A stretch of 64,000 bases of DNA. Source: Diadema setosum (taxonomy: Eukaryota > Echinodermata > Echinoidea > Diadematoida > Diadematidae). Location of the stretch: the NCBI RefSeq assembly GCF_964275005.1, contig NW_027307674.1:1-64000 (forward strand). The letters run 5' to 3'. Below, piece by piece: positions 17,881 through 48,796 of the stretch. The position numbers and the translations under genes are program-made. The stretch's first letter is position 1, and the number at the start of each line of letters is the position of its first letter. The notes beneath the pieces are model-generated. The model was not told the DNA's origin, searched no databases, and saw only the letters and a program-made list of their open reading frames with translations.

Positions 17881-17894
17881 ATTTCACATCCAAT

Positions 17895-18895: not shown

Positions 18896-18899
18896 GATC

Positions 18900-21259: not shown

Positions 21260-21815
21260 AGGGCTTTTTACACTTGTAAATTTTTGCTTAGCCCCGGACC
21301 AACGGTGGGGCTAAGGGGGGAGGGGGGGGGGGCCTTAGCCCCACCGTTGGTACGGGACTATCCTTAGCCCACTTTCTGTTTACACTCGTTTTTGCCAAAG
21401 TGGGCTAGCCCCACCGATAGTACGGTACTATCTGGCCCTGCAAAATAGCAGGGGTTAGCACCGCAATTGCGGTGCCAAGCAAGTGAGTGTAAACAGAACG
21501 AAAAAATAATCCTGGTTTAAGCGACGGAGACGAAGTCCGACCCTCACTGACCAATCAGAAACGAGGTAACCAAGTGCTGCCGGTGCGTGCGTGTACGTGT
21601 ACAGTACACAGCGTAATTATGAATATTTATGTGGTTTGGAAAGTCCGGGGCTAAGAAATACGAGTGTAAAAAGGTCAGTTTTCTCCTTAGACCCGGACAA
21701 GAGATAGTACGGGACTAATTGGCGAGTGTAAAAAGCTGAAAAATTGGTACGGGACTAACGATAGTCCTGGGTCAGAGAAAGTCCGGGGTTAAGAAACACA
21801 AGTGTAAAAAGCCCT
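21260..21815. mobile_element. Harbinger-like MITE, 556 bp, TTA target duplication
   Basis: Inverted ends AGGGCTTTTTACACTTGT and its inverse, each continuing to a CCCCGGAC block (about 35-40 bp). Flanked by TTA at 21257-21259 and 21816-21818. Unit C has a single GATTAGAGGGA at 15564, the empty site. The 3-bp TTA duplication fits PIF/Harbinger elements. No transposase. Confidence 0.8.
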
Positions 21816-23648: not shown

Positions 23649-23733
23649 CTGTGATGATAGACAAACACAGCGCACTGGCATTTCTCATCCTTTCTCTTGA
23701 CACTTGTACTACCATTAACTGGGAATATACCAT
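23649..23733 (-). CDS. Receptor exon 8: IFI44-like GTPase, last exon recognised in this copy
   Basis: An 85-nt exon from acceptor TTTTCCAG to donor AG/GTGAGAG, encoding NGIFPVNGST, VKRKDEKCQC and AVFVYHHR. In IFI44 proteins this follows switch II (a VPDG-like turn, then the strand leading to the G4 region). It ends in phase 2, so a further exon starting with one base is needed, as at 55699 in the paralogue. None was recognised downstream; repeats begin about 300 bp further on. Confidence 0.82.
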
Positions 23734-26700
23734 CTGGAAAAAAGAAAAGGCAGAGAAGAAATGAATTAATTGTTATGCTTAATAAAAACAATTTGATAGG
23801 CTCGACTGTTGGTATGTGGTTTTATTATTTAAAAAAAAAAATGAAAACGATCTAGTGCAGTGCTTCAGAGTTTAGAGCTGACTGCAACCTTGATACACAA
23901 CGTCAGTTTTCGAGAAAGTTTGTGGAAATGGACCCGAGTGCTAACATAACAATGGAAGTCTTTCGAGTCTTCGTGTTTGTTTCTTGTTCTCTCTCTCTCT
24001 CTCTCTTTGGAATAGCAAAAATTGTTTTCGAACTGACATTTTGTCCGCGGTTTGCTCGAAACATGAACACCTCAATAATGAAAACTACATTCATGGAATG
24101 GAAATGATTGTGCCATGAATAACACATAATTGATACTTGATTGAACACATTGCCCAGCCTCTTTGAAAGGTTCGCGCTTCTCATTCCGACATTTGATATG
24201 ATTATGACTATAAAAGAAATTACCGTCTTCAACATGTTCACAGCAATCCGGTTATCCTAATGCAATACAAGACATGTGTTAATGTCGTCGTTGTAAGTGC
24301 ATGGTAAAACATATTGGCTCTTGGTTGTTGTTTTTTTTTTTTGTGGGGGGTGTTTTTTGGCTATAATTTGCATTATCGTTTTACCAAAGGGTCGCCGATT
24401 TTTTTGTTTTTTTTGTTTTTTTTACTACGAACACTACGCATATAAAAACAACATTATAAACAAACAAACAAAAAACACCTAAAAACTAATGTGACTGTAA
24501 ACGTTTATGCAATTAATGTGGCCAACCTTGATGTTGGTCATGTAATGCAATTAAGATACCGTATTATTCAAGACGGACAAGGTCCAATCATTAAGAAACA
24601 TATAACACGTAGGGTCTGATTCCATCGCTATACAACAATTGTACAAGTTCAAGGTAATTTCTTCTTCTTCTTTTTTCAACAGAACATAAAAATGTACGAA
24701 TACATGATGCAAACGACTCCTAAATAACTTACCATATACGAGTACTTGATAATACAATACATTATCAAAAATGTACCAATGCCAATGTTCCGACGTACTT
24801 GACGACAATCTAATGTAAAATATAACTTGTGAAATAGGATATTTTCTTCCAAAATAACGCCTTTGTACCGTGGATGAAAAAAAAAAAGAATAGAGTCTTA
24901 AGCAAATTTGTCTGACTGTGGAGGGAATAGAAATAGAGTGTTTTCATAATAAAAAGAGTCACAACGACAAAGATTGAACAGAACAGTATCATCAAAGAAG
25001 TGAAATATTTACATAATAAAACATCGCTATAAATAACATGAAGCAGCAGGTACACGTACAAAAACAAAAGAAAGATGGGAAAGAAGGAAAAGGGTGGAAC
25101 TTGAGTGGCCAATGATTTAGATTGTGTATAGGCTAAAAGCAACCACATTAAAAAGGACGGTGACTGCATGGAAGGTATAATAGTGTTGATGACGATGTAC
25201 ACAGCCGTATATCATTGTTGTAGTCTACGAGTTGGTGATTATATAATAAATAGTTAAGGTTCCTGTTACATATTTCACTTACTAATTTCGTCCTTAAGGC
25301 GTTCCAATGTCTCGGAAGAGAAGTCTGTTATGCCACAAGTCTCGATCAAATCAATTCTGTCAGTTAATATGTGATGAGTCTTTCCTCCTGGGTGTTCTGT
25401 GTACCCTTCGCCGGCTATGGTGGAATATTTTCCTGTTCGTTGAACAAAACGGAAAACAAACATAGTCAAGTTTGGTGACTGCAATAAAGCTCTTTCTTTA
25501 TATCTGTCTGTCTGTCTGCATCTCTCTCTCTCTCTCTCTGTTTTATTTACCGCGTCTTCGGGGTTTTCCTATGAGGGTTCTTCTCACAGCCTATCATGTT
25601 ATGAATAATGTATGTCTCGCGGTAATGCTATGCACCTTCTCTCTCAACACACGCACACGCACACACACATACATAAACGAGCGGAGACACAGAAAACATA
25701 AGCCATATATTACAGCAACTTCATCGGGCGTATTGGAATTTCATGACGAAAAAATATTCACAATCCTGTAATGCACTTTTTTTTTACTGACGTCCAGGGG
25801 CCATTCTGCTTGTGTGTGTGTGTGTGTGTGTGTGTGTGAGTGTGTATGATTTCATGTACTTTTAAGTATTTGTAAGTGGTTTATAAAGCACTATGTACAA
25901 TACTTCAGACACCATTAAAATCACATTCGCTTTCATCGTTTGCACTTTAAAGGAACCACACACAAATGGCTGTTATGTGATGCTATCTCACTGAGTTTTA
26001 TATGTACTCTACATTTTCATCAAACAGAAAATTCATCAGCACAAATATGAAAGTAATGAAATACATACAAAATATTTTCTTTGAATTGCATGGTCTATAA
26101 ACACCGTTCCATCTTTCTCTACCTCTGTTGACACATACTGCATTCATGGTTTACAAAGTACGTAAAACACATGAGAGCGTACGAAGTATTACGTGCTTTG
26201 TATGTTTCACCATTCTTAGTCTGTCTCGCTCCAGTGCATTATCTATGTACGACTGGACCTTTCTTTCTCCACGCGTCAACAAATAGATAATACATTTTTG
26301 ATATTTAGAAATTACCACTTGAATTGATAAATATGGACAGAATGCGTGGGGATGATGAAGCAACTCTGCTCAACAGTTTCAAATGCATTGCAATGAAATT
26401 ATATGATGTTCCTTGTCCATGAGTCTGAAAAATGTCATTCCGTTTTTAAAATCAACAATACAACATTGAAGATAAGTTCCATTACCGGTTAAAGCGTAGT
26501 TGAGAGAGTTGATGAGACAGGATTTGCCAGCAGAAGTTTCACCAAAGAAAGCGATGTTCACCTTCGACGGGGGTGTCCACGGGATTTTAAAGAATGTCCT
26601 GCCGGGTTTGTAATTTCTTATCTTTCGTCGAAGCTTTGCTCGTTGATAGGCTATGTATGAAAGAAAGTTTCAATTTGATTAATGATAAGGATCAGGTGTT

Positions 26701-29700
26701 GGTAAATAATACAGTACAAATTATTGCTTTTACGCCTTTCACATGACAATAATGATTTTAATAATCTGAATTGGCATGGTGGGCGTATATTACTTAATGA
26801 GTGGATATTAATGAAACAGAAAAAAAAAACAAGAGCAAATAACAAATATCAACACAAAAAACAGATACCGACAGCTTGTTTGTTGCTATTAGGTGTACTG
26901 CGTAATTTGCGGTGTAAAAACGTAGACATTACGCTTGTTAGCAATTTGCTCTTTCAATTGCTCAAAATTATTGTTATGACAGTGTTTATTATGCATGACT
27001 GTTTGTGTAAGACATTACAGGAATGCGTTATCTCAGAATATACTATGTTTTATTGCTATCGTAAGTATTGGAAATTTCTACGACGCTTGAAAATTTAGAT
27101 CACACTTTCCTTTTAAACCCTAAATGGGAATGCAGAAAATTAGGCTTAAGAATCCAACAATCTTCTATTATTGTGACTTTCGTTGTGAGCAACAAAACGA
27201 TAATATCCGACGTCTTACGTGAGGCACTCAGGATTTAACCAGTAGCGATAAAGTATATGCATGTATGTATTAATGTGCTCTTATTTATTTGACCTGTTAA
27301 TTTATATGAAAAAAGAGCGATCATAAGCAACATTTGGATTAACAGAAAAAAATCTAGACTCGTTAAGTCCATAGACTTTTACAATTTCGACTTTTGCGAG
27401 GTGTACAGTATGAAGTGCATTAAACAAAGGTAAACGGTATTACACAGTCATCATAGCCCACTCCTTTAAATTGGAAATTATTTTGTCCCCTACACACCAG
27501 AATGACAAAATACTTTTAGGCAATTAGTCAGCACGCGATCGACGGGTCTAAAACACTGCGGAAGACTCAGCAATGAGAATGAAGGGTCTTGGCTTGTATT
27601 TGCAAAACTGCTGCTACAAGGGGCTTAAAGGCAAGGTCCTCTTAATTTAGAGCCCTCCACTTCCTTTTAAAAGTTTATAATTGTTCAACTTGTAATTATT
27701 TTCAATTCGGTATACTTTGGATTTGACTATAAATAGTCAAATCCCCACACCTTTCTGCAAAAAGCTTCGAGCACGCCACAACAGGAAGACTACTGTAACA
27801 GCGCACGGAACACCAATAGCCAGTCCGATGATGAGACCCCGAAAATCACGTTTTCCTGGAATTTTGATACAGATACAATTGACACACGTAATTAAACCAG
27901 TCCTTCATTCATAGAGCATTGAATATGCAGACACTCACTGTGCATTCTGTGTAACGAGTAACAAGCAAATGGAAAATTAGGTAGAACCGTAAGATAGTGG
28001 TACATCAGCATGCATGGTCAGTGGATCTCACGTGAGCATCGTTTTGCTATAGTAAACGGTGAACGCGTAAATTCAAATACAGTTTTGTGTCCTCTCACAA
28101 AAACAGAAACACAACTGCCACCGACAATAACAACAACATCAACATAGATTAACTTATTCCAATGTTTTAATAGCAATAAACGTCCCAGCAACACACAAAG
28201 CGAGATTCTTGTATGTTTTTTTTTTCTCGGGATATTTCTTTTTTTATGTGCTAATAAAAGCTCTTCAAAAGTTAAAGTCCCACTTTTGAGCAGTCCCTCA
28301 TATCCAACAATTATTATTTGGTTTTTCACAAAAGTCAAAGCACTTATGGTATATTTCATTCACAGTATTTTTTTATTCCATTCTTGCACTTAAGTTTGTT
28401 TCATTATGTGTATCCAATTATTTCATTGTAATTATTTTTTTAAACAACAACGACAACCGATTGAAAGCAAACCATGTACATAAAGATTGTGATAACAAAG
28501 TGAAAGATAGACAGTGATAGATAACATCGTGATGAAAGCATTAAAAAAACAGGAGCAATTCAGTGGTTACATTAGGAAACACAAAGTAATCAACGCTTCA
28601 AGAAACCTGGAATAGGCAGAACAGTAATTTCTGCGGTAGACGTTCCATTCAACGAGTCTCCGGTAGCCGTGCAACTGAACGTTTGCTCCGCTCCACGTTT
28701 GGCTAAAACGGTGATTGTCTCGAATCTCTCGTATGTGTCGTCAGATAGTGTGGTCTGTTGTGAAACCACTGAAGACAGTCTTTTTCCCGCCTCCTCTGTC
28801 CACAGCATGGAAATATTTGGCTTAAACCCACTCACGACACACGTGAAGTCAATGGAGTTAGTATTAGAAGGAGTTTGGTATGTACAACGGCTTGGATTCG
28901 CCTGCCCTTTGTCGACGCATCCCTCGATTGCAGGTTTTGATGCCATTGCTACGGAAACAAGAAATTGCATGTCAAATAGATTCAAATTCAACATTTCTTG
29001 GCCAAGAAATGACGAATGTATTTGTTAAAGACTTCATTTATTTCACCATAGGTCCTACTTATGTTATGGCAAGATATGACATTTGTTTCCAGACTAAACC
29101 GTCTACAGTTATGGATTAATGAGGAAAATAATGATATTTCCTTATATTTTAGGCTTTATTGCAAGCATTTTATATGGTAGGATATTTTTTGATGCAACTG
29201 ACCTACACATATACACTGCTCACTAAATCACTGCTCCCAAAGGTAAATAGGACTTTTAATCTTGATTGTTTTATTTGAGCGTTTTCTTAACACCGCTTTT
29301 AGTTTTATTTAAATTCTTTAATTTAATTCAATTCATTTCAATCGTCCAATAAGAAAATAAAAAAACATAACAGGAAATTCAGTGCGGGATTTTTATATAA
29401 TGAATGACGAAGAAAAAGAAAAACAAAATACAAGAGAGAACATGAATTAGTACATTATAAATACATGAATAATTTTGCATGCATGTTTAGTATACTCAAC
29501 ATGCATGCAAAGTCAAACTGAAAAGAACAATCGTATAAAGACGTGGCATAAAACCGACTCAATTGTCGTGATGTTAAAAAGTCCAGAAATCTTCCCTGCT
29601 GCTACGTTCCCAATCACATGTGCCCTCCAGTCAACCACGTCAAGCAAGCACAAAACCAATAACCTTTAAGACAGCCAATTCGATAGTATCGTAACATGCG

Positions 29701-32700
29701 ATATCTGTAAGATCTTCAGCCATGGCAGCACTTGTTACAATGCCTACAGTGTATTGATGACAAAAGAGAACGTGCACGTCGCCGAATTTATCTGTGCTGT
29801 TTTTCCATGCAACTGTTAACGTCCTCTCTAAAAGCATTTGCTTCTGTGACAGTTTCTCCCATGAAACATATCTACATTCTATTACAAATATAAATTCTAT
29901 TTACAAACATAATACCTTTTTCCCAATCATCACAATAAACTCCACCTGAAACGATATTACAACCCTGAAACCCGAACAATGCTATAATATAATTTTATTA
30001 GTTATCGTAAATTTCAATAATTATCAAAAAAGGACTGTTTATCAGCAGTATTTGCATTTATGTATTTAATAGAGTGAAGTGAGTAAAATTTATTTGTATG
30101 AGTCCCGAGGGCGCCGGAAGCGGGAGGGGGGTTACCCCCCCCCCCCCCAATAAAACTTTTTGGGGCCAAACGAGTTTTTGCCTCCTCCGCCCCCAAAGGT
30201 GCCCCCTGTAACAACAACAAAACAAAAAAAAAAACAATTATTTAATGACCAAAATGAACAATATAGGAACTTTTCTTGTGTAACAGTTGTCAATTTCATA
30301 AAACTGAAAATGCGTAATTTTTGCCCCTACGGGGCGAAAATCTTAACACGCTTCTGACATACATAATCTATACACCGATATTTACTTATGAGTAAATTTA
30401 GAGTATATATCGCAGCCTCGCGTCCTCGAGTGTGTCCCCTGAAACTCACCTTAAGTAAACCTTACATTTTCCCTTTCTTCTATGCTTTTTAGTATTATAT
30501 TAATAATCTTTATTGCTCGAACAATGCGATCACGTTTAATCTTTTAATTAATACATTCAGACGAATGGCACAGTGAAAGTGGTTCGGGCGCTCTGTCCGT
30601 ACTTACAGTAAAATGAACAGTTTTCAATTCAATTTTTTTTTTTCAATTCAATAGTTTATTTATTTCCATCATCAGACATAAAAGAAAAGAAAAAGTTGAC
30701 ATAATCCAAAGTGATACAATTGTTGTTTTTTTTTCATTTCTCTTACACTCGTCTGATAAAGGATTTTTTCAATACAATATAAAGTATATTATACACGAAT
30801 AATGTCGTAAAAAGGAAACAATGCACTTTGCCATGGCAACAAAAATAGCAAATAATAACAATGATGGAAAACAGTGTTCCACTAAAAAAGCCAAGCTTGT
30901 AAGACGTGAAACACTAGAACAAAACAACAACAGCACCAATTTGTTATACCAATAAGACATATTCATTTTAAATTCTTCTATTATACTACTGTTAATTTTA
31001 CTCATTGATATATGATGCTGATACTATAAACAATACTTACTAGGATTTTAGAATGCAAACTTATAAGCTATGTAACATATCACATTTGTGGCACAGACAC
31101 TATGGGGCCAGATGTGCCAGGAAAATTAAACGGAAAGGAAGATATGCAATTGGCCACAAAAAACATAACGACGACAACAACAACAATAACACAACACACA
31201 GAAATAACAGAATTTGAGGAAATGCACTCAGACAGATACTGGACAACGAAGAACGAGGAAAAAGGAGCAGGGAAGAATAGAGAAGGAAAAGGAGAGGGAA
31301 AAGGAGAGGGATGGAAAAGGTCTGTGGACACACTACAAAATCTGAAGGAAAAGTGACACATGACGGGTTTTTTCATTGAACAGAATTAACTGGTATATTT
31401 AGAAAACAAGTATTGTTTGAGTTTATACTTAAATGTAATTAACTTCACAGAATTTTGTAGATCATTATCTAAGCTATTCCAAAATCTGGGTCCGGTATAA
31501 ACAAATGTATTTTGAGTGTGTACAGTTCTCACTAAAGGAAGATGAAATTCTTTAGATTGTCTCGTGGGATAATTATGTACGTGGATGTTACAGTGAAATA
31601 AAGAATAAAATATTTTGGGTAGAAGGTTGCAGTTGTGATTAACATAAATTGACCAAGTTGAAACAAATACAGCTGTTTTATTTTCAGAATTGTGTGTTCA
31701 GTGAAAAGCTTGTCAGTGTGTTGTCTTCGATATGAAGGTTAAATACGTTTCTGAGCGCCATCTTTTGCAGAAGAAAAAGTTTATCTACCAATGTCGAACA
31801 TGTATTCCCCCAAGCAAGAATTCCGTAATTCAAGTACAGCAATACCAAACTTGAATAAAGCGTAATCAAAGCCGAAGAAGGAAGATAATATTTCAATCTA
31901 TTCATTATGCCTATGTTACGTGCAATTCATTACAAATATTGTTTATGTGACACATCCATGATAACTTATTATCAACACAAACACCTTAGAATTTAATAGA
32001 CGAAACCTCTTCTAGGGGAGTAGTGTCAAATATATCATTGCCTGGTAATCTATCTAAAGAATTACTGAAAAAAACATATACTTTGTCTTCTCAATATTCA
32101 GTGACAAGTGATTTGCATATATCCATTGTGAGACATTCTTCAATTCATGATTCTCTGTACTAATTAAAGTAGTATGGTCAGGGTGTGAATAAAAAAGATT
32201 GGAGTCATCCGCGAATAATATAAAAGAGTTTATCCGAAGATCTATAAAAATCATTAATGTAAACTATAAATAACAGTGGGTCTAACAAACTTCCTTGCGG
32301 AACACCACATTCTATTTTCTTCACAGAAGAATCAAAACTGTTCACATGTACATATTGAAATCTGTCAGATAAATAACTCGTAAACCATTGCAAGGCTTTT
32401 CCGCGAATACCATAATGGGATAACTTAGAAAGAAGTATACCGTGTTTAATCGTACCAAAAGCCTTGGAAAAGTCCAGGAAGATGCCTATTGTATGTGAAA
32501 ATGTATCAAGTGCACGTGTAATCTTTTCCACAAAGGTAAGTAAAGCGTGGATGGTGTTGTGATTTTCTCTGAATCCAAATTAAAAATTCGTAAATGTATT
32601 ACTCACATTCAAACTCACAAAATTTACAGTTCGGATATATACTATTCCTTCCAAAATTTTAGAAATTGAAGTTAATAACGATATTGGTCTGTAATTATTG

Positions 32701-34075
32701 ACATTATTCTTCTCCCCTTTCTTATATATAGGTATAACTTTAGCAGTCTTCATCTGACTTGGTACAAACCCAGTAATAAGTGATAAATTAATAATATATA
32801 CTAAACGATCTATTATTTGAAGAATTATATTTTTCAACAAATAATTATCGATTCCATCACAACCTGGGCTTTTCCATTCTTTCAAATTATAAATAATATC
32901 AATAACTTCTTCATTATACGTAGGGTCGAAGAAATATATAGTTTTAAGATTAGGCATATCTAAAAACTCATAAAACACTTTATTAGATGAAGGGATACTT
33001 TGTGATAAATTTTTCCCAATCGATGCAAAAAAAAATCATTAAAATTTTCGGCCATGCCAGCAGGTACATTGCTTGAGGTATTACCCCATCGTACTTCTGA
33101 AATACTAGATACATCATTAGATGTATTCATAACATCTTATATTGTTTTCCAAGTATTCTTAATACTTTATTATATTTCATTATCTGGTTAACATAAAATT
33201 TTCTCTTTTGTAAACGCAATAATAAGCATGTTTTTATAAGTCACATATTTTTGTCTATTTTTATCCGTATTGTTACTCCTGTATTTATAAAACAAATTAT
33301 TTTTTCTATTAATCGATCTTAGAAGTGATTGGGTTATCCACGGGAGTCTTGGAGTTCTTTTGTAAGAACTTTTCCTAGTACAAAACGGCATATGTTCATC
33401 AATTTTAGAAGTTATAGTTTTCATAAATGATGATCCTAGTCCTTCCCACTGATTGTGTTTTTACTATATTCAATCCCTAGAAAATTTGAATTATGTATGA
33501 TCTGTAAACGCGACTTTTATACTCTGTTTTTACAAAAAGTCCCTACAGTGATGCCCCCTCCCACACCCTCATCCGCTCGGTCGCAACTCCCCCTAGCTGA
33601 GGATCTCACACCGTCACATAATGTTCCCCCGTATGTTATGATCGTATAGTCCTTCAAACTAACAATTTTTCGTCATGTTTAATTCCCTAGAAATTAGCTT
33701 TCAATTAGCTTTTTATAAACGTGACTTTCGTACTCTGTTTTCACAAGAAGTCCCTACCGTTGAAGGGGGTTTCCCCCTCCCACACCCCCACCCCTCGCTA
33801 GGTCGCTTCGCTCCTTGCCGAGGATGTCACACCGTCACATAATGTTTCCCCGTTTGTTATGATTGTAGTCCTTCAAACTATGTTTTTTTTTCGTCATGTT
33901 TAATTCCCTACAAATTAGCTTTTAAATGTTCTATAAAATGTTATATAAATGTTCTTTTGTACTCTGTCCCTACAATAGGAGGGGGTATCCCCCCTCCCAC
34001 AACCTCCTCCTGCTCTGTCGCTTCACTCCCTCATCGAGGATACCACATCGTCAAACAAACAAACAAACAAAAACA

Positions 34076-34106
<31 letters not shown>

Positions 34107-37100
34107 CAAATAAAAACAACAACAAAACAAACAGAAGTGTTCCGGCGCGCTTGATGACCCCACTCGAACGGCGGAAAGGAAGACTCTTTTGCATCCAAAC
34201 ACAGGCTGAAAAATACGCCGTTATAGGTTTTATGGTCTATTTCAGTGGGCATGTTACCGGCTTTCGGCACGTTTATAGGATGTCATACCAATGTCATACT
34301 AATGTCATACTAAGGAGGTACTCGCCTAGTACCTCCTTGGTCATACTACTGCCAGTAGACATTCGCAAGAGTTATTCCGTGTAATTGCCGAGAAGAACGC
34401 ATTGGCGTTCAATGGTAGTACATCCAGACTTTCGAGAATTCCTAGCTGGTCTATCATGCAACTAGTAACATATTTTTCGATAACTGTGATCTCCCTATTA
34501 ACTCTTCATGTGCCACGTTCGCACGTCGTCCGGCTCAGTCGACGGCGTGCCAACTTCGCATATTCTGCTCAACAAACAAAGCCGCAAAAACCGATCGATA
34601 AATCGGTAATCACTGCTAATCCCGCGGCACGATGAAAGCGTTCTTCGTGCTTTTGTTCCTCTCATATACGGCTTGCATTCTATGTGGTGATTGATTATCA
34701 AGTGGTGTTTCCAACTAGATTTGCTCGTACATTCTAAAGTTTCTGTGACGGTTATATGTGCAAAAGTCATGCCCTTACAGTAATGTACAACTGGTCATTC
34801 GAAAGAGAAATTGAAAATAGATTCGTCATAAAATTTATATCGAAACAAAGTTTGGCATTCCTCTTTGACTTTCCCTACTATTATGCCCATCTTAACACAA
34901 ATTTGTAGAGGTTATACAAATTAGAAATACAGAATTCTTTTCTCAAAGCATGACTACCTTCGTGTCTCGGAATAACGTGACACACAGGGGGTTTCACCAT
35001 GGCACATAAAGAGTTAATAAAAAAAGAAACAGGAACGGAGATCAGATGATTTATAATGCTATTCTCACAACAAAGAATGGTTAACATGACTTGTAAATGT
35101 CCTAAATAAGTCGTTGTGTACATTCATGTCACCTCAATGAGTTACAAGAAATGGAGTCCTAGTAGTCTGTATTACCTTTGATGTCACTTTGATTTGATTT
35201 GATTTTGATTAGATCTTGATTTGATTTATTTGTTCTCTGAAAGGAGCATCTTTTTCAATTATTTTTCCCATGTCATATAATAAAACATACAGTTAAACAA
35301 TGATAATACTCACTGTGGTTATTTACCCTGTTAAATACTAAAATTTCAAAAATTGTCAATACACATACATAAGTTTTATGTGATCCTTTTTTTTTGATGC
35401 CGCCACCAAAAGATATTTGGAGCATAATGTGGGAAACTAGAGCTGCTTCACGGATAGGACGACAATTGGTTTATGTGCATGTTTGCATAAGGACCAGCTT
35501 TTCTCAAAGGAAAATATGCCTTTTTATCGTGGTAATTATTCTTCGCTGTCTCTACTTGAATAGATGAGCGGTACCTAAGCCTAATGGTACAGACAAGTGG
35601 GTGGGCGAATAAGAACTGCGCGAAGATTAATGATATACAATTTAAATCACTCGAGTTTATATGTCTTTACACTAATCTGACATACTTTACACTTGAAGAT
35701 ATAACACATCAGATCATTTGTCGAAAGTGATCGGAAAAATGATTTCGTTTACAATTTATCGAAAGATTTTGGTACATACAAGTACTCACAGTTCACGGTC
35801 ATTAGGGTGGAATTTGAGAAATCTTCGAAGGTCGTAAACACCAATTGACAATGATAGAGGCCCTCATCAGCCACTTCTAGGTCTGTAATTAACAGGTTGA
35901 AGTTCTTATCGATGTCGAATCGTTGCTCAATGCTCACATAATCCCCGTCAAAGTAAGCCTTACTCGTTGACAACTTGGGATGTGACATGCTCTCCTTGAC
36001 CCAGTATACAGCGAGAGGCTCCTCCTGAAAGTCACACGGCAGTCGGATGTCTTCCCCTCTCCATCCTTGAATGGTAGGGAGGGTGTCTACCACAGGGGCT
36101 AGACAACGGACAAATGTTCATTTTTGTCATTTATGCATGTTGCCTTCATGACCCACGGTAGGAATAATGTGCTGTGATCCACAAGTACAATTAAATATGA
36201 TAAAGACAACCATGTCTATGGCAATTTTAGTCCGGCAGCCGAGGGGGCTGAGTACTTTTTCGATATAGTTTTTTTTTTCTTTGCTGATTATTCATCTTTG
36301 GGGTCTCTACAATGATATTCAGGTGGGTGTGGAGCTCTCACCCTTGGGCAATTTTAATTATTCAAAATGGCGTCCAACATGGCCGCCATGAAGCCTAAAA
36401 GCCAGAAAAATGTCACTACTGAAACCACTAGTATTTCTATTAGAACACTTATCTAAAAGACCAGTAATATTAGTATAATGCCTTTAGTTGAGCAGAATCT
36501 GGTGGCCATGGTAACCATCAAATCATTAGAACAAACCTCAAAAAAGTTAGAAAAGTATGCAAAATACACAAAAATACTCGTTATTTGTGCTACGTGCACA
36601 AAATATCAATTACCTGCCTACCCCTAACAAAGAAAATCTTAATGAAGTAACCATTAATCTAGCCTTTATTTATATTTATAGTTGCCATAGCAACCTAGAC
36701 TAGAATTTGATTTGGAATAAGTGCCGAAGGATTGAACTGCAGTATAGCAATGATGTGAAAATGTGACATATCATATTTACTCCACTTTACTTTATTCCAC
36801 ATATGCCTATATTGGTTACACATATACCGGTACCTCCCTCTGTTATATGAAGTTGATATGTCCTGGTTGCCATGGTAACTGCTCAATGTCAGTCCCATAA
36901 CAAGCATACATATACATTGCAACAAAAGTGTTCGACACTATTAAAGTTAGATGGCAAGAGACTAACATCTTTGTGTAATACTTATTGGTGGATAAATCGA
37001 CTCTTAGCTGGGATGTGCATGCATGGTTTCATTAAATTTGTTTCTAAGTGGTAATATAAATACAATCATACAATGTGAAATAATTTCATGGTTTTGTCAA

Positions 37101-40100
37101 ATTATTGAAACATACATTGCAATATTACAACCTGCATAAATGTCCTCAAAATCGTTCATTAAGTGTTATGTGAAAACAACATTTCAAAATGAGACTGCCT
37201 ATGTGGTACAAGGTGAAGACTGTAATGAAATAACTTTCACATTCATGACATTGACATCAATACATACATTGTTCGTAATAAACTACAATCCTTGAGAATG
37301 AAATAATCCAGTTTGTTTCATTAATTTTGTTAATTATCTTACTGTACTTGCCTGTAGTTTTTATTCATGAGTCATGCATATTAATTTAACCGAAGTTAAT
37401 ATTATACAAGTGTAGAAGGCAAAAACACTCTGAAAAAGAAAATATGTGTTTGTTATAATTTCCTGTAAAAAAAAAAATAACATATTATGACTTACTTTTC
37501 TTGTTTCATTTCTGTGGAACATGTAGGTTTCTAAATTAGATCATGTTAGTTTTTAAGATTCAGGTTCCAGTTCTGATGAGTAGCTTATTTCTATTTTGCT
37601 TCATTATGCGAGGGATTATAGTATCTAAGACATAGGGAGGGGATGAGCAAACTTAAAGAATCGTAAATATCTTACTTGATTCTCACTCTGGTCTTCCTTA
37701 CCACTCTCTCTGTTCCCTTCTCTACCGCCTCTACTAGTACAACTTCAACTTCCGACCCATTACTATCCCCCGCTCTGCACTTTTTGCACTCCTTACTATC
37801 CCCATATGTCGCTTCCCTCTTCAATTCTCCTCTTTCTAGTCTCTAGAAAATTCTACAAAAATCCATTTTTCATGAAAATTACAAATTCCATCAACTTGAT
37901 ATTGACATATGTTAGGGGTAGCAATTATTCCCCCTGCTTTCTGAAAGAGGTTGGTCCATTGCTCTTTCATAATTCTAGAAAAGTGAATTTTTGTTGAATT
38001 TCCTTTATATTTTCTTTGTATTGTTGTCCACTCATACGTCATATCCTCTAGTAGTCTCCTCATCCAGCGGTTTCAACACCAAAACTTTAAAAATTCATAA
38101 CTTTTGCATCGATTGCCCGATTTTCCTCAAACTTTTACTGATGTGTTCAACTAATGTTGCTGCTTTCACTTAATCCACATTGCTTTTTGGGTTTACCTTC
38201 CCTTTAAGGACTATATACACATGGTGTCACTGCAAACCTTTCTCCCTCAAACTTGAAGAAGTTCCATTGCAAAATATCATTACGCAAAACTTTACTTTTC
38301 ACTGTAATACACAGAGTCGACGCAAACAAGGGATGAGGGCTCGCCTCAACTTTTTTTTTTTTTTGGGGGGGGGCATAATACATAGGAATATAATATAGGG
38401 TCTTACGACTAGGATCCCCACACTTTTTTATACTGAAGAGACACAAGAAAAGTGGGATAGCCCCCCCCCCTCCCTTTTTTTCTTCTTGTCAGCTGATTCA
38501 GCCTATCAACACCGGAAGTAGCATCAGAAAATAATAGTTAAGCCCTCTTCCCCCCCCCCGTTTTTGTTTTGTTTTTTTTTTTTTGCTTGTCAGTAAAACC
38601 CAGAAGTGGCACCAGAAATATAAACCGGGCCGCCTCACTTTTAAAACATAGCGCCATCCCCGATATGAGTGGTTCTTACAAGGGATGTTTAAGAATAAAG
38701 TGCATTATGAGTGTCTGAACTTCTTAAATTTTCATATCTTTCTATGCTTGAATTTAGGATAAAACCGATTTTGTTAGCTAAGATTTATTTCTGGCTACTT
38801 GTAAGCCGATTTTTTTTTTTTAATCTAATCTTTATGGTTAGACATCGTGGTTTAACTCTCAAACAAGTAGCACATGTCTTCTAAAGGTGGCCCAACTCTC
38901 CTCAAGACATGGCTCAACTCTCCTTACACTGCAGAGTGTTGACATTTATTTTTCTAAAGAAAGTTTTTTTTTTCTTTTTTAATTAGGCAATGACCTAGAA
39001 CAGTAGAAGAAATTGTCATAGCTGCAAGACAGGTTTACAGTTGTACTTCAATTTGCTAACAGACACTTGTTGTGAGCAAGGATTGATCAGGAAACATATT
39101 CAAAAATAGAAAAAGTGGCCCATCTCCTCTACTTGATATCATAGGATTTTCTTTATTGTATAGAATTTTATGATGTTTGAAGACATCATATAGGCAATTA
39201 TCTCTTCAGATGATACTCTCATGGTAACATGTATAACACCAAGAAAAAGGCAAGTTCCCGAGGCAACGATGTAGTCAGTTTCTTTTACAGATAAAGCTTC
39301 CTATATACACAGGTTACATTATATACTCATATACATTCTGAGATATCCCAGGATTATACATTCGTATGTTAATTATCATGTCTGCAACCAGCCAAAGAGC
39401 AAGTATCCATGGCAACCATCTACTCAGGTCCTTTAAGTAAAATAGTTTCTATGATTTTCTGCCAAACATTCAGGTTAACATGTCCCTCATCACACACACA
39501 AACCCGATTCCATATCATTTTGTATTTATATTGTGATTTTAGTGATTTTAAACTAATTATTCAATGTTTACCATGGCAACTGTCTTGCAACAAATTTCAA
39601 AAAATATTTCATTCAAGTTGTTGGACCTTTGGACAAATGCCCCAATCCAAACATTGGTATAGTGGCACTTAAAACACATGATACATACGTTTTCCTGGTT
39701 TGAGGGCTGTGTGGCGGCCATGTTGGACGTCATTTTGAATAATTAAAATTGCCCAAGGGTGAGAGCTTCACACCCACCTGAATATCATTGAAGAGACCCC
39801 AAAGATTAATAACCAACAGAGAAAAAAACTATATCAGAGAATGAGTACTTCGGCCAAAAAATGGCCTTTGGCTGCCGGACTATTTGCCCTTCATTGTTTC
39901 TCCAGCATAAAACAATTTCAACCATTGTTGATTGTGTTTCCTTTACCGTACATTCCAAATTGATTTATGGTGTCTATCCTAAACACAGTTACCTCATATC
40001 CTTCCCCTGACCCTAGTGACCCTAATCCTAATCCTGAACATAATCCTTACCCTAACCCAAAGTCTAACCCTAAACCTAATCCTGAACATAATCCTTACCC

Positions 40101-42798
40101 TAACCCAAAGTCTAACCCTAAACCTAATCCTAACCATAATATTTACTCTAACCTATCACTAAACAATATTTATGGGGGGGGGGGGGAGGGTAATCATTGT
40201 TGTCCGGGGGGGGGGGGGGGGTCATCGCCCTGATACGGATTCATGTTATATTCTATTTATCTATGTCTCTCTGTCTCCTGAAATTCATACTAACGAAAGA
40301 GCTATTTCCCCTTTATTACAAGTAATATCATACGGTACTTATTGGTTCAGATGCGTCCAACTATTATATACAGCTTCTAATAAAAACCGATAAAACGATA
40401 GACTTGTTATAAAATAATTATGACTTCTTAGTACCATTGTACCTAAACAATGCTTATAAATGCAAGGATATATTAAGTGGGAACATCAGTCAAGTTTGAT
40501 GAAATCCATTCCTGAGTTGTGAATGTAAAAAGTTTGTGTTTATCATGTGCCGTCATCGCCGGATGAGAAGCTTACAGACATGACAAATGTAAGTGATGTC
40601 ACAGTCTGGCAACAGTATGATTGCTATCGTTGATTTATTTATTTAAACATTCAAAAGTGCCACCTTTTCCGCATGCCAAAACCCTGTTATTAATATTTTG
40701 CTACAAAGACATTATGAACGATATTATCGTAAGTTTTATCTCTTAGCAGAGAATGAATTCATGGTGGGTCAATCAGGATCAATATTAAGATCTATTCACG
40801 ACTTTCCATAAAGCCATTACCCATTCTTGTTTCGCCAGCTTCATTAACAAAAACTAATGTCTTTCACCTGTACGGTTGGTCATCCCCATACATCTGCCCG
40901 AATGATACCATGACAACAAAAGATTACTTACAGCTAACCGTCAGACTAGTGGAATTCATAAAAATCTCGAAATTTTCCAACATGAGTTGGCAATAGTAGC
41001 GACCTTCATCTGCCACTTGCAAGTCGGTGATGACAAGGCTGTATTTCACATCGATGTTAAACCGCTCCTCTTCGCTTGAAAAGTACCCATCGAAGAATGA
41101 AGCCTTCATCGACTCCACTGGCTGATTCGAAATGCTCTCCTTTGTCCAAAACACGGCAAGCGGCGCCTCCTCAGAGTGACATGGCAGTCGAATGTCTTTC
41201 CTTGTCCATACCTGAACGTCGGGGACAGTCTCTACAACAGAGGCTATGTGAAAATAAGAAGAGTTCGTTCTTTCAGGTGTGAGTTTCTTCAGTTTGTCTC
41301 CTTCTACAAATTAAATTGGTTAAGATTGCAACTGCTAATCTGTATACCAAACATGTCGGAAAAACGACATGTTTGTTAATTTACAGATCAGCAGTTGCGA
41401 TCTTAACAAATTTAATTTGTAGAGGGACACAAACTGAAGAAACTCACACCTGAACCTTTACCCCTCTGAATAATATTATCTTTCTTTTAGTTCGTTCTTT
41501 TTATTAAGGTTATTGATGCACGTAGGATAGCGATGGCTCTTGTCAGTTAAACATCGGCTGCTGGAATGTTGGTGGTTGGTCTGATTCATGTTCTTTGAGG
41601 AAAACTATTTTAGCGAAGTGTGATTTTGATATTATTTGTTTGGTGGAAACTCATCTTGTTGAAAGTCAAACAATTCAAGTTAGCAACTACATTTGGTTTG
41701 GGCGTATAAAAAATTGTATGATGCTATGATTTTGCCCATATTGCAATATGCAAGCGGTATTTGGGGCTTAGAAGAATATTCAGCCATTAATAGTGTTTTT
41801 TATAGAGCATGTCGTTTCTACCTTGGAGTGGGGAAATATACCCCTAATGATGCAGTTATGGGTGATATGGGTTGGGATCCCCCTTTTTATTATCAGTGTC
41901 AATCAATTGCTAGGCTTTGGTGTAACCTGAGTAAGTATACTAGTGACCGTTACCCTGGAAAAATTTTCTTGTGGTCAAAGTCCCTGGCAAATAATGGTAT
42001 TAAGAATTGGTGTTATAAGGTTAAACAATTATTTGCAAAATTGCAGTGTATGCATGTTGAACCATTGGCTGAGCTTGTTAGTACACATAATTTTGTGAGC
42101 ACCGTATCCAAAGCATGTAAATTATTTGTTGAAAATAAGTGGAAATGTTCACTGTTTGATGATAAAAGGAGAGTTCCCCAATCCAGAAACAAACTCAGAA
42201 CATATCGTAATTTTAAACATTCTATGAATACTTCTAATTATGTTATGCAGTGTCAGAATAGATCTAACAGGCGAGCATTAGCTTTGTTTAGAAGTGGTTG
42301 AGCCCCTATTGCCCTTGAAACCGGACGTTATAAAAATGTCCCACACGATGAAAGATTTTGTATAATCTGTAATTCTGGGGATGTAGAAGACGAGTTTCAT
42401 TGTTTTATGATTTGTTCGGCATATGATGATTTCAGATCACATTTATTCAGTATAATAACAGAAAGAGATCCCACCTTCCCTCAGTTACCTATTTACCAAC
42501 AATTCCTTTTTTTAATGTCATCAGAATCACTGTGCTGTCAAGTAGCCAGTTTTGCCAACCTTATTTTAACGTGCCGTAACAATTTATTATATTCCCACAG
42601 CTGAATATCTCTTTTATGTATTATTTAGCCCACCATATTCTCTCTTTTGTTATGTTTAATTATTTTTTACTGTCTGTATGTCCTACATGATTCATTTATA
42701 TATCCTGTATTATTTATGATGTTTGATGTACACATGTATCACTCATAGGCCTTTTTAGGCCGGCCGGCCGTGTGACGGGTGTGATTTTTAAAGAATAA

Positions 42799-42830
<32 letters not shown>

Positions 42831-44152
42831 ATGGCGTCGTTAAGCCCCATTGGTTGATAAATCTGTCATAGGCGACAGACAGAGTCGAGTCAAAACTGTG
42901 TGCGCTTTTGTTTCCTTTGTCTTTTCGATTTCCAACTATGGTTAACAATATCACCTTAGTTCTTTTAATCCCGTTATTTTGGGTGTGGTCAATGGGAGGG
43001 GAGGGACGAAATTTGAATTCTACACAATATCGTGCCTATGTTCGGGTTGGGGTGAGCTAATACTCATCACAAGGTCTCCCAACACTTTAAAACGTAAAAA
43101 AAGAAAAAACAAGTCCTGAATAAAACGAATCACACTCAGTAGTTTCGTCTACACATAAAGCATACCAAACGCAATACACATCCCATGCTAGAAATCATAA
43201 GTATACAACACTATAACAGTGCTACTCGGTTTTTAATTAATATTACAAAGTTCACAAGGCTATCTTTTAGTAGAATGAACTTCGCACGAGAGCCCCTTTT
43301 TCAAAGTAAAATTATCCATTAGTTATTTAAACAGGCATTCTTTTTCTCTTTGATCTTCATACTAGGGCCTACCCCCGTACCACCACCTGTTTAGGCACCA
43401 GTGTATAATACATCACACCTATACATCTACAATGAGTTTATCTTCAATAAACATTTTCTCGCATAACGTGTAGAGACCAAAGTTCATTTGGTTTTCATAG
43501 CTCGAATGTTAGACATGTAATGTTATACATACAATGGTTTGGGCATGCAAACACGACGCCATTGTATGATGCAGATTCTTGTTTATATGTATTTCCGTGT
43601 GAAGCTAATTCGGTACCCTTTCAGGCATGAAGACATCAGTGTTGCTTGTGATATTTGGTTTGAATCAATCCAACGGATTTGTGAGTGGCTGCCCCTACTT
43701 TTTCCAGACTTGCATGAAAACATTAATTGCTAACTAACACAATGTAAAACAGAGTTAAACATTAAAATCCTTGATTTATCTAATCTTCACTTCTCTATTT
43801 CCACTAACGTGAGTCACTTCAGAAATGAAATTATATAAAAGAATCAAACATCATCTTTCATGATCCTAATGAATAATTATGTAAGAACTAATATCAACGA
43901 ACAAGCGATCCCATTGTCATGTACACAAATGTCTTTTCGGTAGGCATTTGCTCATTATCAAATTTTGCTGTTGCCAGCCGATAGTGAAAAATATTGTCAG
44001 GCGTACTATTCTTACATGTGTCAAAAGGAGACTCACGTGTAAGGCAGATCCCCAAATACTATGCACCTCTTACCTTCTATAAGGGGAAAATGGTCCACAA
44101 ACATAAGAACTGCTAGCAGCAGAACGAGGTAAGTGTAGTCTCTTATATCCAT
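23649..44152 (-). CDS. Ig-domain transmembrane receptor with cytoplasmic IFI44-like GTPase (spliced, 3' end not found)
   Basis: Proposed join on the minus strand: 44152-44074, 41243-40932, 36098-35790, 28948-28607, 27855-27751, 26650-26486, 25432-25283, 23733-23649. Every junction has AG/GT borders and all internal phases agree (phase 1 throughout, except phase 2 at the last donor), giving about 515 continuous codons. Predicted order: signal peptide (1-26), V-type Ig (27-130), V-type Ig (131-233), C-type-like Ig (234-347), TM helix (about 354-374), basic juxtamembrane stretch (375-397), then an IFI44-like GTPase with P-loop GETSAGKS (419-426) and a G3-like ETCG (468-471). IFI44-type proteins are interferon-inducible GTPase-fold proteins in vertebrates and are expanded in marine invertebrates; the Ig ectodomain suggests an immune or recognition receptor. 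Two more 3' exons expected from the paralogue at 52-60 kb are not seen, so the gene is truncated, broken or continues through repeats. The splice from the TM exon to the GTPase is inferred. Confidence 0.72.
23734..25282 (-). other. Receptor introns around exon 7: nothing coding recognised
   Basis: Contains CT and T runs and one block (24135-24250) that aligns with 56500-56610 in the matching intron of the second copy (AAAGAGGCTGGG... and GACGG.AATTT). This is homologous intron sequence kept after duplication. No consistent splice sites frame it. Confidence 0.5.
25283..25432 (-). CDS. Receptor exon 7: IFI44-like GTPase, switch II region
   Basis: A 150-nt phase 1-1 exon (acceptor GAACAG, donor A/GTAAGTG). 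It encodes GKYSTIAGEGYTEH, GGKTHHILTD and DLIETCGITDFSSETLERLKDEI. ETCG sits where a G3 DxxG motif is expected. The paralogous exon at 60541-60392 has the same length and phases and reads DTCG there. The Asp to Glu change may weaken nucleotide handling or mark decay. Confidence 0.85.
25811..25839 (+). repeat. GT microsatellite
   Basis: (GT)n of about 14 units inside a receptor intron, between exons 6 and 7. Confidence 0.9.
26486..26650 (-). CDS. Receptor exon 6: IFI44-like GTPase P-loop exon
   Basis: Phase 1-1 exon of 165 nt starting at acceptor ACATAG. It encodes a very basic lead (QRAKLRRKIRNYKPG), a FFKIPW linker typical of IFI44-like proteins just before the GTPase core, then a beta strand VNIAFFG and the Walker A motif GETSAGKS followed by CLINSLNYAL. 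The donor CCG/GTAATG follows. There is no start methionine near the domain start, which supports its being an internal exon joined to the transmembrane exon about 1.1 kb upstream on this strand. Confidence 0.82.
27737..27855 (-). CDS. Receptor exon 5: transmembrane helix, with alternative short-tail stop
   Basis: Spliced in phase 1 from exon 4 (acceptor AAATTCCAG), this exon reads GKRDFRG, then a hydrophobic helix of about 20 residues (LIIGLAIGVPCAVTVVFLLW), then the basic stop-transfer RARSFLQK. Two endings are possible. A donor AAAG/GTGTGG at 27751 is in phase 1 and joins exactly to the GTPase exon at 26650. Read-through past that donor adds only GVGI and stops at 27737, giving a receptor with a 12-residue tail. 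The exon could therefore choose between tailless and GTPase-bearing receptors. Confidence 0.75.
28607..28948 (-). CDS. Receptor exon 4: membrane-proximal Ig domain (C-type-like)
   Basis: A 342-nt phase 1-1 exon encodes a third Ig domain, different from the two V-type ones. It has FTCVVSGFKPNISMLWTEE (Cys to Trp spacing typical of a C-set core), a second cysteine in FSCTATG, and sequons NIS and NGT. Two further N-terminal cysteines (GCVD and SRCTYQ) could form an extra disulphide. Acceptor TTTCCGTAG is good. The donor CCAG/GTTTCT is weak but in the right phase. If the intron were retained, translation would end five codons later, giving a possible secreted form. Confidence 0.78.
29320..29600 (-). 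repeat. LINE tail-like fragment in intron 3
   Basis: TTAATTCAATTCATTTCAATCG resembles the TTGAAT-rich tail of the LINE at 30636, in the same direction. No ORF. Tentative. Confidence 0.3.
29640..29873 (-). pseudogene. Possible decayed Ig V-type exon inside receptor intron 3
   Basis: An open stretch reads LTVAWKNSTDKFGDVHVLF and, after a gap, AEDLTDIACYDTIELAVLK. The W, the hydrophobic C' strand and the D..L.V.L pattern resemble the middle of a V-set Ig domain, but no DxGxYxC end follows and there is a stop after VIGFVLA. A possible acceptor (TTTTAG) is in phase 1, but joining it to the preceding exon would create a stop codon, so it is unlikely to be used. It may be a relic domain from a receptor with more Ig units, or a chance ORF. 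Confidence 0.3.
30636..33424 (-). mobile_element. 5'-truncated, frameshifted LINE inside receptor intron 3
   Basis: Minus-strand order: LPWITQSLLRSINRKNNLFY (33.4 kb), GCDGIDNYLLKN with YRPISLLTSISKILE (32.9-32.6 kb), FLDFSKAFGTIKHGILLSKL and GVPQGSLLDPLLFIVYIND (32.5-32.2 kb), LFADDSNLFYS (32.2 kb) and YLNYGILAWGNTCSTLVDKL (31.9-31.7 kb). The pieces lie in different frames. No endonuclease is found, so it is 5'-truncated. The 3' region of about 1 kb ends in AATTGAATTGAAA-type repeats at about 30640. RT motifs place it in the Jockey/CR1/L2 group. Confidence 0.8.
33474..34055. repeat. Tandem repeat, about 220-bp period, 2.6 copies
   Basis: Units start near 33474, 33690 and 33905 and share TTCCCTAGAAATTAGCTTT, ACTCTGTTTTCACAAGAAG, CCCTCCCACACCC and GTCACACCGTCACATAATGT-type blocks. 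The last unit is cut off at an (AAAAC)n tract. It lies in intron 3. Confidence 0.75.
34312..34338. repeat. Short perfect hairpin after three direct repeats
   Basis: AAGGAGGTACT and AGTACCTCCTT are separated by 5 nt (CGCCT). Just before it, ATGTCATAC occurs three times (34280-34310). Confidence 0.75.
34840..35015 (-). repeat. Dispersed repeat with TTAACTCTTTATGTGCCATGG start
   Basis: The minus strand matches the plus strand at 45688-45870 over about 150 bp (CGAAGGTAGTCATGCTTTGA; GAGGAATGCCAAACTTTG). The 45.7 kb copy lacks about 40 bp in the middle. Short matches to its start also occur at 34497. Family unknown. Confidence 0.65.
35790..36098 (-). CDS. Receptor exon 3: V-type Ig domain 2
   Basis: This 309-nt symmetric phase 1-1 exon encodes a second V-set Ig domain: DIRLPC (first Cys), VYWVKES (Trp), LLITDLEVADEGLYHCQL (Tyr-x-Cys signature) and an NST sequon. 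It has acceptor TTGTCTAG and donor GTGAGTAC. Shared blocks with domain 1 include IRLPC, PLAV.W.KES, ITDL.VADEG.Y.CQL and NST, so the two are tandem duplicates. The domain follows directly on domain 1 without a hinge. Confidence 0.85.
36228..39882. mobile_element. 3.65-kb element with long terminal inverted repeats, no transposase
   Basis: Left end TAGTCCGGCAGCC matches right end GGCTGCCGGACTA. Inverted similarity runs at least 180 bp through ATTCAGGTGGGTGTG, TCACCCTTGGGCAATTTTAA, GTCCAACATGGCCGCC, and weakly further in (GCCATGGTAACTGC). The interior has no ORF with a known domain and holds half of another MITE (37880-38217) and G/C/T runs. Non-autonomous DNA transposon. It fills most of receptor intron 2. 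Confidence 0.75.
37880..38217. mobile_element. Half copy of the long-TIR MITE at 62621-63190
   Basis: From CATATGTTAGGGGTAGCAAT through TTCATAACTTTTGCATCGAT to CCTTCCCTTTAAGG it follows the right half of the 62.6 kb MITE. The left half is absent, so it was truncated or cut by recombination. Confidence 0.7.
40005..40160 (+). repeat. Telomere-like CCTAA/CCTAAC minisatellite, 48-bp period
   Basis: CCTAATCCTGAACATAATCC starts at 40027 and again at 40075. The array is built from degenerate CCTAA and CCCTAAAC words. Two full units plus a partial third, followed by G-runs. The plus-strand open reading frame (PNP-rich) is a repeat artefact. Confidence 0.8.
40932..41243 (-). CDS. Receptor exon 2: V-type Ig domain 1
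   Basis: This 312-nt symmetric (1-1 phase) exon encodes one whole Ig domain. The first cysteine is in DIRLPC, the core tryptophan in VFWTKES, and the second cysteine in the V-set signature DEGRYYCQL. An NST glycosylation sequon sits near the C-terminal strand. The acceptor is TTCACATAG and the donor GTAAGTAA. It is clearly similar to the next Ig exon (36098-35790) over its whole length, so the two domains arose by exon duplication. A 183-bp foldback hairpin starts 29 bp upstream of the acceptor. Confidence 0.85.
41272..41454. mobile_element. Foldback hairpin element next to Ig exon 2
   Basis: TTCAGGTGTGAGTTTCTTCA on the left and its inverse on the right. Arms continue through CAAATTAAATT and GATTGCAACTGCT to a tiny centre (CATGTCGGAAAAACGACATG). 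Arms are about 85 bp with few mismatches. The left end is 29 bp from the acceptor at 41243. A one-arm relative lies at 49947-49991. Confidence 0.85.
41550..42832 (+). mobile_element. Internally deleted LINE (endonuclease start joined to RT end)
   Basis: Plus strand: LNIGCWNVGGWSDSCSLRKT, FDIICLVETHLVE (AP-endonuclease start), then abruptly KKLYDAMILPILQYASGIWG (RT C-terminal region) and a zinc-like C-terminus (RFCIICNSGDVEDEFHCF). One stop interrupts near 42301. The 3' end has AAAGAATAAA and a (CTA)n tail at 42799-42830. The whole RT core is missing, so it was copied or deleted as an L2/CR1-like fragment. It lies in receptor intron 1, on the opposite strand. Confidence 0.8.
42833..44073 (-). 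other. Rest of receptor intron 1: no exon recognised
   Basis: AT-rich. A plus-strand open stretch at 43539-43733 has no recognisable domain and no supporting splice context. Confidence 0.5.
44074..44152 (-). CDS. Receptor exon 1: start codon and signal peptide
   Basis: ATG at 44152 opens 26 codons that read as a classic secretory leader: short charged start (MDIRDYTY), a leucine/valine-rich core (LVLLLAVLMFV), then a polar end. The exon stops at a strong donor (AAG/GTAAGAGG read on the minus strand) in phase 1. That phase fits the acceptor of the first Ig exon, where the shared codon becomes alanine, a plausible signal-peptidase site. No promoter could be identified upstream. Confidence 0.75.
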
Positions 44153-47819: not shown

Positions 47820-48796
47820 GGGGGCGCTCTGTTACGTGGTACGTACAAGTAACAGGTTGGATCAGAGCCGTTGGTACGGTATTGCCAATGAGAATGATTA
47901 AATTAAAACGGACTGGAAAAAACCTTTAGCCCAATGACAAATAGAGCTGCAGAGTTGATATTACATTAAATCAGTAATGATAATAAGTTTTTTGAACATA
48001 TTATCATGGATGCGCCTTTAAAATTATTCGAGTTTGGTGTATTTTGAATAGCTATCAAAAATTATTAATGTTTCATATTTGAAAAGGATGTCCTTGCCTC
48101 TACCAAATTACAATATACGATCAAACGGCAGACTGAAAGTACAATAAATCAAATTAGAATATTTTTAAGACGTGAGATTTTGCTTAAAAAACCAGTTGTT
48201 ATTGGAAACTCCCCTAGATCAGAGAATCTGTCTCCAAGTCAGCCCGGTTTCACTAAAGAAGAAAGCAATGTTTTCGCGTTAATTGTACTGAGCATACAAT
48301 ACGTTTTTGCAAAATGAGAAGGCATAGTAATAGCTGATCGCATAATCCGCATAATTTACCTGTACATAGCGGCATGAATTAAGGAAAATTAGATGATAAC
48401 TTTAAAATTAGTGACTCAATTAAAATGAAATTTCAATGTATGAAAATAGAACATAATAATTATTACCTACATCTTGCAGAAAACTCCATTCAATTTGGTT
48501 CAGTGATCACAGATTAAAGTGAACCTTTGTAATGCATGTCATAGTTTCAGTTGCGATGGGGCTTCAAAATTGATTTAAACATTTTTATTATGCTTTTCTG
48601 AACTGAGAAGCACCTTATGAAATACAAGAGAATATACAATTCTAAGAGGAATTCAAAGTCTATTTGATGGAAATTGGTTTTGAAATAGTTAAGATATCCA
48701 AACAAAGCAATCCTTAAAACTGGTGGAACCCACCTTTTAGTGGGATATCTTTGTTTCTGGATATGTAAGTCATATCAAAACCGATTTTTATCAAAT
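47820..48796. other. No gene recognised
   Basis: AT-rich, with no long ORF and no clear repeat family apart from the MITE that begins at 48797. Confidence 0.4.

Follow-up and report, generated by a model that had tools for sequence, protein, structure and literature searches.

In animals, signaling by immune receptors usually depends on short motifs and on adaptors; does the gene analyzed here encode a receptor that carries a GTPase of its own? The gene (hereafter the focal gene) lies on the minus strand of the window, which covers bases 1-64000 of contig C48 (200,222 bases) of the sea urchin Diadema setosum. We consider it rather probable that this locus belongs to a tandem array of D. setosum genes for single-pass receptors, with immunoglobulin (Ig) domains outside, a transmembrane (TM) helix, and a P-loop GTPase inside in the same frame, which would be driven by clustering. 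At the level of sequence, this is founded on the exon order, the common phase-1 borders, a complete neighboring gene, and the same order in other urchins.

Exon structure of the focal gene

The eight focal exons (E1-E8, Table 1) were excised at their borders and joined into a conceptual protein. The joined exons form a single open frame of 515 residues on the minus strand, in which E1 opens with ATG, E2-E8 follow an acceptor AG, and 8/8 exons end at a donor GT; exons E1-E7 end in phase 1 and E8 in phase 2. An earlier sequence-only reading had described these eight exons, with their borders and matching phases, and re-joining confirmed them. Its proposed order of a signal-like start, two V-type Ig domains (IgV), a third Ig domain (C-type by Pfam, IgC), TM, and P-loop GTPase is backed by Pfam matches to V-set, C1-set, and MMR_HSR1, the last on the joined TM-to-E8 part (24.3 bits, cut-off 21.9), while the signal peptide and TM segment were called from hydrophobicity and homology. 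The phase-1 TM-exon donor at 27751 indeed fits the phase-1 acceptor of the GTPase exon at 26650, and the stop that the same reading had seen behind the TM exon (27737) was found on read-through at 27739-27737. It had also noted no start codon for the GTPase, and none turned up: from the stop upstream to the P-loop, the focal frame contains no ATG.

When the joined protein served as query, with scoring of the 7,997 candidates that had most words in common with it, 66 relatives came back, all from D. setosum or D. antillarum. In tblastn, these 66 Diadema proteins matched 8/8 focal exons at E<=1e-3 (two proteins for E1, one for E8, and 9 to 60 for the other exons); because each exon is matched by Diadema proteins, the eight-exon frame is more than chance. 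If intron 4 were retained, the protein would end GFLKR before the TM, with a stop at 28592-28590; the NCBI model P0018 similarly ends LPIPGSLKR, possibly a secreted form.

A complete neighboring gene and a tandem array

On the DNA, the Ig-TM-GTPase architecture is settled, as far as gene structure goes, by the neighboring gene upstream of the focal one (C48 75459-52410, minus strand). This gene is complete: its 10 exons form one frame of 618 residues, ordered signal-like start, three Ig domains, TM, P-loop, DTCG, ITHE, DNYT, and stop. Both the focal and the neighboring gene have Ig domains and a TM helix in one chain. Its last 76 residues, from exon 10, are identical to the D. setosum NCBI model P0006, which omits exons 7-9; those exons are open in the DNA. 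Pfam analysis of the whole neighbor gave V-set (1.6e-23) and, below cut-off, C1-set (20.5 bits, cut-off 21) and MMR_HSR1 (18.3 bits, cut-off 21.9); since the latter stays under its cut-off, the GTPase call for the neighbor rests on alignment and fold and not on a Pfam threshold. The sequence-only reading had covered neither this gene, of which the exons at 60541-52410 are the end, nor the incompleteness of the focal GTPase after E8. Models P0006 and P0010 join the P-loop exon in frame to the last exon, without the switch exons, a skipping that phase-1 borders would permit.

Exon probes on bases 1-198000 of C48 revealed six minus-strand genes, the one nearest the far end being cut at 198000. 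All six (6/6) are ordered Ig, TM, and P-loop (G1), with a linker between TM and G1 in 2/6; G2/G3 follow in all and G4/G5 in 5/6. In two distant genes, no E8/E9 was detectable by the probes. Models P0022 and P0006 map to the contig exon by exon, as do pieces of P0050, in whose gene one Ig domain was found. All of these genes (6/6) offer a phase-1 donor behind the TM or linker and a phase-1 acceptor in front of the P-loop.

The 912.7 Mb assembly was searched for further relatives of the focal gene. The focal P-loop exon is resembled by 45 places: 23 on contig C16 at 24.0-25.7 Mb, two on C16 at 36.2 Mb, five on C48, and 15 on other contigs (C3, C6, C7, C8, C12, C15; 40-51% alike). At least 150 exons resemble the focal IgC exon (150 of 275 candidates scored); these extend far beyond the C16 GTPase cluster, to contigs C12, C3, C4, C17, C25, and others. 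For 9/9 IgC exons listed within the cluster at C16 24.0-25.7 Mb, matching by hand found a same-strand G1 exon 2.0-5.1 kb on; the other 7/16 IgC places listed on C16 (11.3 and 27.2-27.4 Mb) have no G1 listed nearby. Two C16 relatives were partly read, one from IgV and one from IgC, and both continue with TM, G1, G2/G3, E8, and then G4/G5.

One protein or two gene families

The same DNA could be produced by two families, Ig receptors and soluble GTPases, that were duplicated as alternating pairs and then fused by gene predictors, an explanation that we regard as highly improbable. It is opposed by P0085, a complete Ig-Ig-TM-GTPase open reading frame of 528 residues on a contig of 1,741 bases. 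This contig is too short for kilobase introns as in Diadema, which points to a spliced transcript or an intronless copy, and either way it is one frame. Fused models with the P-loop and TH motif behind the TM are known from four species, namely D. setosum (P0022, P0042, P0050), D. antillarum (P0024, P0043), Lytechinus pictus (P0067, P0068), and Lytechinus variegatus (P0069, P0072). In the genes of P0022 and P0050, moreover, TM and P-loop are separated by a linker exon with two phase-1 borders, which both models include; the probes found no such exon in the focal gene.

Several observations weigh against a single chain. Alternating tandem Ig and GTPase genes would show an equal order in DNA, and the focal gene is known here from DNA alone. 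Among the NCBI models, P0002, P0004, P0006, P0010, and P0014 break off behind the P-loop or switch exon or leave out GTPase exons while keeping the frame, some models have the TM or P-loop exon as their last, and the frog relatives examined are soluble. Splice sites of other phases are present too, which makes phase a matter of compatibility and not proof. A P-loop without a preceding in-frame ATG, which speaks against separate genes, is found in 2/6 C48 genes, the focal gene and one at 191 kb; in the other 4/6, an in-frame ATG lies in the upstream intron frame (3/6) or, in the neighbor, inside the G1 exon. In the C16 cluster, 14/23 G1 exons have no IgC exon among the candidates scored, and 17/45 G1-like places lie elsewhere (two at C16 36.2 Mb, 15 on other contigs), the check for Ig partners having covered the C16 cluster and C48. 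There is also a GTPase-only model from Strongylocentrotus purpuratus (P0075); by eye, it starts within a stretch equal to the juxtamembrane tail of P0067, as a clipped model would.

Table 1. Exons of the focal gene and its complete neighbor on C48
Feature	Position	Strand	Description
E1	44152-44074	-	start codon, then a stretch resembling a signal peptide; phase-1 donor; matched in tblastn by residues 3-26 of P0003
E2	41243-40932	-	first V-type Ig, phase 1-1; Pfam V-set 8.1e-9
E3	36098-35790	-	second V-type Ig, phase 1-1; Pfam V-set 2.2e-12
E4	28948-28607	-	membrane-proximal C-type Ig, phase 1-1; C1-set 4.1e-5, 24.3 bits (cut-off 21)
E5	27855-27751	-	transmembrane helix, phase 1-1; resembles TM of P0002
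E6	26650-26486	-	basic juxtamembrane segment, then the P-loop GETSAGKS; phase 1-1
E7	25432-25283	-	switch I and G3 (ETCG in place of DxxG), phase 1-1
E8	23733-23649	-	phase 1 to 2; final exon found for focal copy
Neighbor exons 1-6	C48 75459-64785	-	beyond window
Neighbor exon 7	60541-60392	-	switch I, DTCG
Neighbor exon 8	56196-56112	-	
Neighbor exon 9	55699-55635	-	
Neighbor exon 10	52639-52410	-	G4 (ITHE), G5-like DNYT, stop

Identity of the GTPase domain

Residues G35, G40, K41, S42, N46, T72, D88, G91, T170, and N199 are invariant across 25 family sequences, and a structural model of the family GTPase domain (predicted local distance difference test score 85.7) yielded 109 Protein Data Bank (PDB) matches at E<=0.001 in a fold search. 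The family thus has G1 (GxxxxGKS), the T of G2, and the DxxG of G3 on a GTPase fold; the focal copy has G1, and its G3 deviates. The N/TKxD form of G4 is not found, TH replacing N/TK in the members examined. The aspartate is kept (THxD) in P0042, P0043, and P0085 but is missing from P0022, P0067, and P0069, among others.

The sequence-only reading had called this domain IFI44-like, a label that the analyses made here do not support. The name IFI44 occurs in 0/120 of the matches listed (the best 120 of 243), a comparison that includes no IFI44 sequence. Nor does any PDB chain among the matches listed bear that name, which is no evidence either way, and the fold search singles out no family: Z scores for GIMAP, Toc34, and septin GTPases are not separated from those for Nog1, EF-Tu, and Ras-like chains. 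The profiles of the GIMAP and IRG families gave no score above cut-off, the best being 21.3 bits in P0043 for AIG1 (GIMAP; cut-off 27) and 17.1 bits in P0085 for IIGP (IRG; cut-off 24), and no PDB sequence matched the GTPase domain under E 0.01. Descent of the GTPase from IFI44, with the protein being an IFI44 fused to a receptor, is an idea encouraged by a general likeness (a P-loop GTPase with TH in G4), and we regard it as unlikely. IFI44 is a soluble cytosolic protein, unlike the GTPase here, which is encoded downstream of Ig domains and a TM in a frame that opens with a signal-like start. The large frog GTPase family (P0071, P0087, and others) shares the same domain, with G1, DNRG, TH, and ENYT motifs, whereas the frog models P0071, P0074, and P0087 contain neither Ig nor TM, unlike the urchin proteins. 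Mostly unnamed frog GTPases make up 106/120 of those best matches.

State of the focal copy

The focal gene is the sole one of the six on C48 without G4/G5. Neither E9 nor E10 was found in the 23.6 kb to the contig end (1-23648) by tblastn, a six-frame tail profile, blastn with word size 7, or exon probes. In the other five C48 genes, the last exon lies 2.8, 3.1, and 3.5 kb past E8 (three genes) or 3.1 and 4.0 kb past the switch exon (two genes), and the two C16 relatives hold it 12.3 and 9.2 kb past E8. Megablast likeness of the focal gene to these C16 relatives breaks off at 23340 and 23575, shortly beyond E8, where a repeat block (23353-23201) adjoins. The degenerate G3 motif ETCG is shared with P0004.

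On this sequence evidence, the focal copy is probably a truncated or decoy member. In a stricter form, a broken or decoy copy whose Ig and TM parts are intact and whose shortened GTPase would not hydrolyze GTP, we give the idea an even chance. Against it, all eight exons (8/8) are open with AG/GT borders, the last introns vary greatly in length, and the absent exons may lie past the contig end, behind a long last intron or a break in the assembly. Comparison of E7+E8 with the neighbor over 76 codons gave dN 0.163 and dS 0.418 (nonsynonymous and synonymous divergence), a dN/dS of about 0.39 to which no significance test was applied and which suggests that the two exons are under constraint. The GTPase of the focal copy, for which no G4/G5 exons lie within reach, may be non-functional. 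The notion of a membrane receptor with its own GTPase effector, as put forward by the sequence-only reading, is well supported for the gene family, by virtue of the complete neighbor, the 6/6 C48 genes, and the models from other species; it is in doubt for the focal copy, and the word effector is an interpretation.

Two leads on the missing 3' part were rejected. A splice-bounded motif scan for it gave seven overlapping matches at one place, 6794-6703, which lacked the family pattern. A repeat at 15107-15352 and 48796-49044 was considered as a shared 3' flank; it also occurs inside intron 7 of a C16 relative, which makes it a dispersed repeat (87% alike) and no proof about the absent exons.

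Other features of the window include a direct duplication of ~6 kb on the 3' side of the focal gene (13100-21300), accompanied by additional partial copies, in which the blocks at 13.3-15.5 kb and 19.3-21.2 kb are 77-95% alike, and a minus-strand open frame of 643 residues (2234-4165) without a Pfam match at E<=1. Reverse transcriptase pieces (PF00078), by their look of the non-LTR (long terminal repeat) type, lie on the minus strand at 9345-10091 (1.9e-39) and 32205-32579 (3.9e-14), and a tandem unit of 48 bases with many CCCTAA-like words lies at 40019-40153.

Proposed exchangeable tails on a common ectodomain

A set of Diadema models, including P0023, P0027-P0033, and others, has Ig domains and a TM homologous to those of the GTPase-tailed members, with a NACHT domain replacing the GTPase. 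NACHT was identified here by profile scan in P0028 (2.8e-23) and P0038 (2e-23), and in the others by the domains listed for relatives. In a third tail type, found in the D. setosum and D. antillarum proteins P0021, P0056, P0057, P0059, and P0065, Ig and TM are joined to a multi-span Rolling-stone (Rost) domain (PF21534). On C48 1-198000, nothing was found for NACHT (one probe) or Rost. Over 72 rows, tails were typed as GTPase (21), NACHT (27), Rost (8), or none (16). GTPase and NACHT were told apart by the shape of the P-loop; P0001 and P0019, which lack a P-loop, were set to GTPase by hand, and P0052, P0054, and P0058 to Rost by eye. Of the NACHT-type rows, 18/27 contain the juxtamembrane motif C(G/D)WNP(C/Y/G)W, as do 5/21 of the GTPase-type rows.

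A tree of the IgC and TM region was built from 61/72 rows and the focal gene, after 11 rows whose match did not span into the TM were dropped (P0018, P0026, P0044, P0050, P0062-P0067, P0085). GTPase-tailed and NACHT-tailed rows are interleaved in this tree. The tail label changes at least twice for GTPase versus NACHT alone and, for GTPase versus all other tails, requires three gains or losses, three being forced by the starred branches. The tree carries a long-branch warning (P0042 with P0069), and its Lytechinus rows were fetched by a GTPase query, for which reasons we do not claim that the GTPase tail is ancestral.

Receptors of this kind have a precedent. AjNLRC4 of the sea cucumber Apostichopus japonicus, a phagocytosis receptor of coelomocytes, is reported to have Ig outside and NACHT inside; its Ig part binds microbes, and the protein dimerizes, undergoes uptake, and exerts its effect by way of actin and Arp2/3 (PMC8699970). 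As described there, it resembles the Diadema proteins in being an echinoderm membrane protein with Ig outside and a P-loop nucleoside triphosphatase (NTPase) inside one chain, but differs in its NACHT tail and two predicted TM segments; the likeness drawn here is one of description. A second sea cucumber Ig/NACHT protein, AjNLR-new, counts against the orientation proposed here: it was reported with the reverse topology, NACHT outside and Ig inside (PMC13133943). The sequence-only reading knew of no described family with this order. In the listed titles and abstract openings of the open-licence PubMed Central (PMC) literature, we likewise found no description of an Ig-TM-GTPase receptor; the sea cucumber Ig-TM-NACHT protein is a precedent in kind (PMC8699970). 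Receptors made of Ig, TM, and an NTPase tail are therefore already known in echinoderms, and the GTPase tail would be the new part.

Proposed function and significance

Members of the family would open with a stretch resembling a signal peptide, carry between one and three extracellular Ig domains, cross the membrane once, and hold a P-loop GTPase on the inside. We infer that, on coelomocytes, ligands from microbes or cell surfaces are bound by the Ig part, that binding would cluster the receptors and bring GTPase domains together at the inner membrane, and that GTP-dependent dimers or oligomers could then drive uptake or recruit partners. By analogy with the NACHT tail of AjNLRC4 and its link to actin, the GTPase tail may be an exchangeable effector switched by receptor clustering. 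The members are likely recognition receptors with exchangeable NTPase tails, as judged from their architecture.

Large tandem Ig families also serve allorecognition, and the Diadema receptors might accordingly act in self-recognition, adhesion, or gamete recognition rather than defense. We find this doubtful: the sister tails are NACHT domains, and the nearest functional precedent is a phagocytosis receptor of coelomocytes (PMC8699970).

Returning to recognition receptors, we see arguments of about equal weight for and against the broader proposal of a modular urchin class of Ig receptors, with exchangeable GTPase, NACHT, or Rolling-stone-like tails and at least 150 IgC exons in one genome, in which the GTPase members would turn clustering into GTPase assembly without an adaptor or kinase. 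The occurrence of a built-in GTPase and of NACHT on homologous ectodomains suggests that receptor tails are exchangeable by phase-1 exon shuffling. A built-in GTPase would offer a short cut from recognition to membrane remodeling that can be tested. The results also indicate that Diadema, a genus hit by mass mortalities, has a large family of receptors, most of which are annotated as uncharacterized.
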